Shown: positions 45,600-48,500 of the stretch, piece by piece | Position numbering within the stretch: position 1 is the stretch's first letter | Layout of the letters: each line of letters opens with the position of its first letter | NCBI RefSeq assembly: GCF_019957155.1 | Contig: NZ_JAIPME010000002.1 | Span: 744,001 to 808,000 of the forward strand | Source of the DNA: Anaerococcus murdochii | GTDB lineage: Bacteria > Bacillota > Clostridia > Tissierellales > Peptoniphilaceae | Direction: 5' to 3' | DNA: 64,000 bases | The notes under the pieces: model-generated | Database searches by the model: none | Seen by the model: only the letters and a program-made list of their open reading frames with translations | Told to the model about the DNA's origin: nothing | Made by a program: the position numbers and the translations under genes

Positions 45600-48500
45600 A
45601 AAGAAAGGGCGCAAGGTGGATGCCTTGGCACATGAAGACGATGAAGGACGTAAGTGAACGAAAACTAGGGTAAGCTCACAAAAAGCCATGACCCCTAGGT
45701 CTCCGAATGGGGAAACCCGGCTATGGAAGACATAGTCATCACTAAGTGAATACATAGCTTAGTGAAGTAAGACCCTGTGAACTGAAACATCTAAGTAGCA
45801 GGAGGAAAAGAAAGAAAACTCGATTTTCTTAGTAGCGGCGAGCGAAAAGAAAACAGCCCAACTCAATAAGGATCATATTTAATTAGCAGAATCATTTGGG
45901 AAGATGAACCAAAGAAAGTGACAGTCTTGTACGCGACAGTTAAATATGGACAGAGTGAAAGTAGCACCGGACACGAGGAATCCGTTGTGAAGATAGGGGG
46001 CCCATCCCCTAAGGCTAAATACTAACATGTGACCGATAGTGAACAAGTACCGTGAGGGAAAGGTGAAAAGAACCCCGAAAGGGGAGTGAAATAGAACCTG
46101 AAACCTAGCGCCTACAAGCAGACAGAGCACTAAAGTGTGATGTCGTACCTTTTGTAGAATGGGCCAGCGAGTTATTCTAAGCGGCAAGATTAAGTATTTA
46201 AGATACGAAGTCAAAGCGAAAGCGAGTCTTAATAGGGCCAAAGTCGATTAGAATAGACCCGAAACCGGGTGATCTATCCATGACCAGAGTGAAGGTGAAG
46301 TAAAATTCACTGGAGGCTCGAACCGGGTACGGTTTAAAACGTATCGGATGAGTTGTGGATAGGGGTGAAAAGCCAAACGAACTCGGATATAGCTGGTTCT
46401 CCTCGAAATAGCTTTAGGGCTAGCCTTTGACTAAAGATTTTAGGAGGTAGAGCACTGAATGGTCTAGGGCGGTTAACCGTACCGAAACCTATCAAACTCC
46501 GAATGCCAAAAAATCAGGTCAAGGAGTCAGACTTAGAGGGATAAGCTTCTAAGTCGAAAGGGAAACAGCCCAGACCGACAGCTAAGGTCCCCAAATCTGG
46601 ATTAAGTGGAAAAGGATGTGAATCTACTAAGACAACCAGGACGTTGGCTTAGAAGCAGCCATGCATTTAAAGAATGCGTAATAGCTCACTGGTCAAGTGG
46701 GTTTGCGCCGAAAATGAACGGGGCTAAAATCCAGTACCGAAGCTTCGGATTGATAGAGAATTTAAATCTAATCATAAAGAACTAAAGAAAAAAGGTAAGA
46801 AAAGCTTAACTAGGAAATATTGTAAACAACAATTAATCAAGATAAACGAGTTACAAGCAGGCCTGTCCGGCCCGAAGAGGACCCACACGGAGTGAGTCAA
46901 AAGATAGTTCAACTAGAACGAAGAAAAATTCTTAGGGAAGACAGAAATGCTAAAAACGAATCAAATTTACGCTAAATCAATCACAAGTAAATGGTAAGTT
47001 GTAACTACGATATCACCGAAAAAACAGCATACGAAAGTATGAACCTGGTTAATCAAAGTATTATCTAAGAAAAAACTTTATGTCTAGATTTAATTTCTCT
47101 ATCAGTGGTAGAGGAGCGTTGTATTAGGGAAGAAGCAGAAGCGAAAGCAAAGGTGGACTTAATACAAGTGAGAATGCTGGCATGAGTAGCGAGAAGGAGA
47201 GTGAGAATCTCTCCCGTCGAAACCCTAAGGATTCCTGAGCAAGGCTCGTCCACTCAGGGTAAGTCGGGACCTAAGCCAAGGCCGAAAGGCGTAGGCGATG
47301 GACAACAGGTTTAAATTCCTGTACCGCTTAAAGTCGCTATTAGAGATGTGATGACGCAAGAGGATAAGCTAAGCTAGCTGATGGATGCTAGTCTAAGAGT
47401 CAAGGCCAGTGTGTAGGCAAATCCGCACACTATTAAGGCTGAGGCTTGATAGGTATCGAAAACATAAGTAGAGAAGTAGCCGATTTCAAATTGCCAAGAA
47501 AAGTCACTATCGAGACCAAAGCGCCCGTACCCGAAACCGACACAGGTAGGGAGGTAGAGAATACCAAGACGCGCGGAAGAACCTTTGTTAAGGAACTCGG
47601 CAAAATGTCCCCGTAACTTCGGGAGAAGGGGAGCCATAGCGATATGGCCACAGAAACCAGGCCCAAGCGACTGTTTACCAAAAACACAAGTTTCTGCAAA
47701 ATCGTAAGATGAAGTATAGGAGCTGACACCTGCCCGGTGCTGGAAGGTTAAGGAGACGGCTTAGCGCAAGCGAAGGCTCGAACTTAAGCCCCAGTAAACG
47801 GCGGCCGTAACTATAACGGTCCTAAGGTAGCGAAATTCCTTGTCGGGTAAGTTCCGACCCGCACGAAAGGTGTAACGATTTGGGCACTGTCTCAACAAAG
47901 GATCCGGTGAAATTGTAGTAGTCGTGAAGATGCGACTTACCCACGCTAGGACGGAAAGACCCCGTGGAGCTTTACTGTAGGCTGATATTGGACTTTGAGA
48001 TTAGATATACAGGATAGTTGGGAGACTATGAAGCATGTACGCCAGTATGTGCAGAGTCACCCTTGGGATACCAACTTTCTAATATTAAAGTTCTAACATT
48101 GACCCTTGAATCAGGGCAATGGACATTGTCAGTTGGGCAGTTTGACTGGGGCGGTCGCCTCCCAAAAAGTAACGGAGGCGTTCAAAGGTTCGCTCAGAAT
48201 GGACGGAAACCATTCGTAGAGTACAAAGGCAAAAGCGAGCTTAACTGCAAAACCTACAAGTTGCGCAGAGTAGAAATACGGACTTAGTGATCCGGTGGCA
48301 CCGCATGGAAGGGCCATCGCTCAACGGATAAAAGCTACCCCGGGGATAACAGGCTTATCTCCCCCAAGAGTCCACATCGACGGGGAGGTTTGGCACCTCG
48401 ATGTCGGCTCGTCTCATCCTGGGGCTGAAGTAGGTCCCAAGGGTTGGGCTGTTCGCCCATTAAAGAGGCACGCGAGCTGGGTTCAGAACGTCGTGAGACA

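Follow-up and report, generated by a model that had tools for sequence, protein, structure and literature searches.

The 23S rRNA genes of Anaerococcus murdochii contain a non-coding intervening sequence (IVS) in helix 45 which, judged by the genomes that can be read at this site, is a trait of the genus Anaerococcus, and inside which a copy of a small, dispersed and structured RNA repeat (below, the motif) lies in two of the three rRNA operons. We regard it as quite likely that the best explanation of the data is a genus-wide helix-45 IVS that is excised by RNase III and that hosts this repeat. The analysis starts from operon 1, which lies in the window, meaning the whole stretch of 64,000 nucleotides that was analysed; all three operons of the genome carry the IVS. 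In window positions, the features of operon 1 are:

43934-45461, plus strand: 16S rRNA gene (Rfam match)
45593-48779, plus strand: 23S rRNA gene with the insert (Rfam RF02541, 2693.6 bits; 3187 nt against a model of 2925 positions)
48852-48968, plus strand: 5S rRNA gene (Rfam match)
46749-47104, plus strand: IVS in helix 45, 356 nt (from comparison with insert-free relatives and from the fold)
46749-46779, plus strand: 5' arm of the 28-bp closing stem (from the fold; outer pairs with compensating changes in 28/28 distinct IVS sequences)
47076-47106, plus strand: 3' arm of the 28-bp closing stem (from the fold; outer pairs with compensating changes in 28/28 distinct IVS sequences)

At the place of the 356-nt IVS, insert-free relatives have about 12-19 nt (counted by eye), and the net gain of about 340 nt agrees with the roughly 330 extra bases that the original prediction had read here. 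The same prediction had described complementary ends with about four mismatches in 29 positions; without gaps, 26 of the 29 positions pair, leaving three mismatches, while the best of 5000 mononucleotide shuffles reached 20 and none (0/5000) reached 26. As was proposed at the outset, the insert was folded, and a 365-nt fold that includes the 28-bp closing stem has a free energy of -86.8 kcal/mol; 100 dinucleotide shuffles, all of them less stable, give it a z of -7.0.

Some IVSs encode an S23 protein, although this is not a defining feature of the class. The IVS described here was said to have no S23-type frame, and this held in a Pfam search of its three forward frames (55, 49 and 25 aa), where no family was matched below E = 0.14. 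A search of the genome with PF05635 (S23) also gave no match, but this search is weak since the control genomes were without a match too. We considered a coding remnant, for which the 55-aa open frame ending at 46895 was the candidate, and dropped it as this frame was Pfam-negative at E<=1. A self-splicing intron or another known RNA family was likewise discarded: the Rfam search of the IVS gave three matches (E 1.2-9.8), all well under the gathering score, and the cut-off was reached neither by the IVS nor by the motif copies. Carriage by phages or plasmids was also set aside, as a 371-nt IVS query had no match at E<=0.001 in either the phage or the plasmid collection and the exact motif pattern had no match in viral contigs. 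As far as can be told, the IVS is a non-coding member of the known IVS class that is common to the genus.

The distribution of the IVS was followed in the genus and in the family. In the genus, 31 genomes were searched with a required 23S match of E<=1e-30; 12 of them gave no such match and stand outside the count, and the IVS is found in all of the 19 genomes with a readable site. In the family, at least 76 of 130 genomes match 23S at E<=1e-20, and 11 loci outside Anaerococcus were read at the base level. Ten of these, from five other genera, are without an IVS and have a flanked helix-45 segment of 64-70 nt, versus 282-440 nt in Anaerococcus. The eleventh (L187, from genome G054 of a sixth genus) carries its own helix-45 IVS, which measures 226 nt when the flanks are included. 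The original prediction looked to an alignment with related Anaerococcus strains for presence or absence of the insert; within the genus no such difference came out, for all 19 readable genomes carry it, yet against 10 of the 11 loci from other genera it does stand out as an insert. By eye, the short blocks GGAAATAT and CTGG were noticed in both the L187 IVS and the Anaerococcus IVS.

The closing stem was compared in 28 distinct IVS sequences from the fetched Anaerococcus loci, with the pairs taken from single-sequence folds. All 28 form the outer stem, in which several pairs show replacement of both partners, such as GC to AT in 7 of the 28 sequences. Such compensating changes suggest that the stem is kept as RNA and, together with the site and the stem itself, they support the claim of a helix-45 IVS that had been made for this place.

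Campylobacter is reportedly another bacterium with a helix-45 IVS in 23S rRNA. In our proposed mechanism the IVS would be transcribed together with 23S rRNA, RNase III would cut the 28-bp closing stem, the IVS RNA would be discarded after cutting, and the 23S rRNA would function in two pieces, about 1.16 and 1.68 kb long. The window genome has a gene for RNase III (E 3.7e-72), and on the evidence of the site, the stem, the compensating changes and this gene the IVS is probably excised by RNase III to give a two-piece 23S rRNA. The predicted pieces resemble those of Coxiella, where, according to PMC4990558, RNase III excises a helix-45 IVS and leaves 23S pieces of about 1.2 and about 1.7 kb; as described there, the two also agree in the helix, in the complementary ends and in the replacement of a small loop. 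Another option is that the insert stays in the mature 23S rRNA as an unexcised expansion of helix 45. The interior of the IVS has blocks that are invariant across seven aligned Anaerococcus operon copies (window positions ~46806-46854 and 46959-47050), which is not obvious for RNA that is supposedly discarded and which speaks for such a retention. We still find retention improbable, given the long stem of RNase III type, the RNase III gene and the cleavage of the same site in other bacteria (PMC4990558).

Within the IVS, a further segment can be separated by comparing the three operons. Its features are:

46855-46958, plus strand: 104-nt nested segment that operons 1 (window) and 2 carry and operon 3 lacks (operon comparison)
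46853-46919, plus strand: motif match with model R1 (41.0 bits, E 1.8e-10), divergent in its 3' part
46860-46882, plus strand: motif hairpin and pseudoknot (positions read off the sequence from the counted structure)

Over 371 nt, operon 2 and the window copy share 99% identity. In operon 3 exactly positions 46855-46958 are missing, and the remaining IVS differs at one base, 46854. The outer stem pairs are identical between the filled and the empty copies of the window genome, and the 104-nt insertion with its motif copy leaves the closing stem unaltered; the IVS interior would tolerate insertions because it would not reach the mature ribosome. In the segment, the hairpin is formed by 46860-46863 with 46869-46872, and its loop (46865-46868) pairs with 46879-46882 as a pseudoknot. 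The original prediction had noticed a GC-rich core, and this is borne out by 65.1% GC at 46855-46897 against 26.2% in the IVS without the nested 104 nt. Its further suggestion that this core makes the IVS a distinct structured form did not stand, as the core is nested, is missing in one of the three operons and belongs to a dispersed repeat family. On the operon and genome comparisons, the GC-rich core does not belong to the IVS proper; it is a segment in its own right and represents one copy of a dispersed RNA motif. A miniature element of the IS200/IS605 type, considered for a TTAC/TTCAAC resemblance, was rejected as the operon comparison gave other limits.

rRNA operons are readily collapsed or mixed in assemblies, and the difference between the operons could in principle come from there. 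This is extremely improbable in our case, as the genome is in two contigs, operon 3 has four further single-base differences elsewhere in 23S, and a like difference between operons recurs in genome G024. In the genus search the IVS of relatives often matches the query at 1-114 and 224-371 with the core skipped, and query positions 116-155 were also matched at sites outside IVSs. A related core is found at the same point of the IVS in two other species, namely in L063 (G024, in which one operon is filled and two other fetched operons are empty) and in L064 and L082 (G015, with both fetched operons filled). The same motif point in the IVS of three species is not expected from random insertion, and the shared position may come from one old insertion with losses or from repeated insertion at a favoured point. 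One possible history, which we take as quite conceivable although tentative, is that the segment is ancestral and was lost by operon 3 instead of being gained by operons 1 and 2. The shared point in two other species and the divergent 3' part of the window copy fit such a loss, while the absence of a core at that point in G006, G009 and G005, whose 23S sequences place them nearer to the window genome, and in the two empty G024 operons argues against it. Only the 23S identities are used for this nearness; the accompanying comparison of rRNA spacers with the IVS was left aside, being confounded by inserted tRNAs and repeats and by a masked stretch. The direction of gain or loss leaves the identity of the nested segment unchanged.

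A second repeat that is likewise dispersed, with two hairpins and a length of about 80 nt, was observed nested at varying IVS positions in relatives (L021, L067, L068, L069 and L073, in the IVSs of G009, G007, G022, G026 and G011, respectively). In several 16S-23S spacers, a similar sequence lies behind the spacer tRNA and is oriented the other way. A blended query for this repeat matches 17 of the 31 Anaerococcus genomes at E<=0.001.

The motif was modelled from seven copies with three hairpins and without the pseudoknot (model R1). Of the 31 Anaerococcus genomes, 27 have an R1 match among those listed at E<=0.1, with 0 to 43 matches per genome, and 24 have one at E<=1e-4 with stricter filters; at E<=1e-4 in the family-wide search, none of 99 genomes from 38 other genera had one among the matches listed. 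When the genome collection was scanned for the exact pattern, the motif turned up in 13 stretches, all from Anaerococcus. The window genome has 16 copies at E<=1, and across 66 sources R1 gave 117 matches at E<=0.01, of which 108 are distinct. The structure of the motif is a hairpin whose loop pairs with a downstream segment of the GGAC type (the pseudoknot), plus two hairpins. In the four helices 96.8% of the alignment cells are standard pairs versus 84.7% in shuffles, two-sided changes number 158 versus 34.4, and slid controls are at most 41.2% paired; the pair counts of the hairpins lean towards hairpins because the alignment was fitted to them, whereas the count of the pseudoknot (96.0% of cells paired, two-sided changes in 4 of 4 pairs) is free of this bias. 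Owing to the covariation in all four helices, the motif looks constrained as a folded single strand. The Rfam search of the motif copies gave no match at the motif that reached the cut-off. Bacillaceae-1 RNA, which has RUCCU loops and lies beside rRNA operons, was considered for the identity of the motif and rejected, as it was not among the Rfam matches. Judged by these searches, the motif is a genus-specific, dispersed, structured RNA repeat without a matching Rfam family.

To see where the motif copies sit, 116 distinct places were taken from the 66 sources, picked by score and genome and not randomly. Some loci enter this set repeatedly through related species, so its counts are interdependent. 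Directly at tRNA 3' ends (-3 to +1 nt; Phe, Tyr, Met, Thr, Val, Glu, Ala, Arg) start 24 of the 116 places, 12 are in 16S leaders, 6 directly follow 5S, 5 are in IVSs, 4 in the 23S-5S spacer and 3 in the 16S-23S spacer. A further 25 share their strand with a tRNA or rRNA gene at most 700 nt away, and 7 are antisense to such a gene; the remaining 30 are more than 700 nt from any gene of either kind. Of the 86 copies near these genes, 79 are thus on the same strand, and in antisense copies that abut a tRNA it is the 5' edge of the motif that touches the tRNA 5' end. In the window genome only 3 of its 12 places in the set are near tRNA or rRNA genes and 9 are away from them, counter to the pattern in the genus; at four of its loci (L128, L134, L135 and L136), intergenic regions were seen to contain further short modular repeats, interspersed with shortened versions of the motif.

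At five places without a nearby tRNA or rRNA gene (L107, L105, L109, L142 and L155) the motif lies directly at the stop codon of a frame of about 500 aa. Four of these proteins were tested and all four are GroEL; the remaining one (L105) has almost the same sequence. On this result we dropped the idea that these copies are guide RNAs of a transposon nuclease. In L107, L105, L142 and L155 similar sequence was seen to run on behind the motif in a tandem-like way.

These locations raise the question of whether the motif is a functional RNA signal, acting in 3'-end maturation or stability of tRNA, 5S and groEL transcripts, with the IVS copy as another use or a stray. When a tRNA lies upstream on the same strand within 700 nt (41 places), the motif start is at -3 to +1 nt relative to the tRNA 3' end in 24 cases and at 2-56 nt in no case. 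This exact spacing and the covariation of all helices also fit a functional RNA, and the copies directly after groEL in several species and the prevalence of the same strand (79/86) point the same way. The copy number of 0 to 43 per genome given above, the absence from one of three operons, the copies inside a transposase gene and a tRNA-like sequence, and the 30 of 116 places away from tRNA and rRNA genes do not suit such a role, which we rate as rather unlikely. If the motif were functional, it would be a new RNA processing or stability signal. A more speculative hypothesis, and in our judgement an improbable one, is that the motif is cut at its own 5' edge, immediately ahead of the first hairpin, either by self-cleavage or by a nuclease of the host, and spreads as a tiny self-processing mobile RNA element. 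Such cutting would give clean 3' ends to the adjoining tRNAs and 5S and an extra cut within the IVS, and the element would do no harm, as its own processing would free stable RNAs of it. This hypothesis leaves the groEL and transposase-gene copies unexplained.

For the preferred reading of the motif as a dispersed repeat that has come to lie in the IVS, signs of mobility were found at two further sites. The first is the following copy:

60157-60179, plus strand: second, minimal motif copy (R1 match 60150-60210, 25.2 bits, E 2e-05; sequence)

Lying 120 nt after an intact tRNA-Gln (59955-60030), this copy interrupts a second, degenerate tRNA-Gln-like sequence (~60130-60223) in its anticodon arm. 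The second site is L125 of the window genome, where a motif copy lies between the two halves of a DDE transposase. The genus has 28 other places that match this site; nine were aligned, and five are filled at the same point and four empty. The net difference between filled and empty copies is about 22 nt, with the filled form seeming to replace about 7 nt, and a clean insertion was not shown at the transposase sites. Terminal repeats, target duplications and a mobilising enzyme did not come to light for the motif, which speaks against mobility. A 'CA' target rule was considered and dropped, as no single upstream offset stands out in the 86 contexts that are not labelled tRNA. From the interrupted genes and the filled and empty sites we infer that the motif repeat may be mobile. 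With the motif and the second repeat both nested in it, the IVS looks like a tolerated landing place, and if the motif is mobile, excised rRNA segments would be safe landing sites.

Several known systems can be compared with this arrangement. In PMC4990558, IVSs are sporadic among strains and operons of several genera, unlike here, where each of the 19 readable genomes of the genus and each of the three operons has one; the Anaerococcus IVS also differs from the helix-45 IVSs of that text in carrying a nested dispersed repeat, with no S23 frame found. Operons of one genome that differ by small 23S inserts, for example in Salmonella, are described in PMC2672173, with larger IVSs that encode transposases. 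In contrast to the cases given there, all three operons here have the IVS, and what sets them apart from one another is a further element lodged within it.

As to the motif, it is like the BOX, RUP and SPRITE repeats of Streptococcus pneumoniae in being small, dispersed, modular and RNA-folding, and PMC3049150 presents these as presumed non-autonomous mobile elements. Among the features of dispersed repeats of the BOX/MITE type, many genomic copies and a conserved fold were found for the motif. Compared with the description in PMC3049150, the motif is unlike BOX, RUP and SPRITE in being GC-rich with a pseudoknot core and in having many copies that start exactly at tRNA, 5S and groEL ends, and terminal repeats and target duplications were not established for it, in contrast to them. 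The GC clusters of yeast mitochondria, as described in PMC4478555, are also very short, GC-rich and folded elements in AT-rich DNA, and filled and empty sites as well as composite copies are common to both. GC-rich palindromes are also reported to flank tRNA genes in Neurospora mitochondria (work cited in PMC4478555). Unlike the yeast clusters of that text, the motif is on a bacterial chromosome and has a pseudoknot fold, and the likeness is drawn without claiming a sequence relation.

With a genus-wide IVS in a Gram-positive group and a partly conserved interior, the persistence of IVSs becomes testable by comparison. The larger point is the nested, covarying pseudoknot repeat, which is the part that specialists would not expect. 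Behind the 23S gene of operon 1, tandem direct repeats were also observed at 48921-49529; they take in the 3' portion of the 5S gene as well as a hairpin resembling a terminator, and consist of two 118-nt copies (48921-49038 and 49039-49156, 92%) and three 113-nt copies further on.
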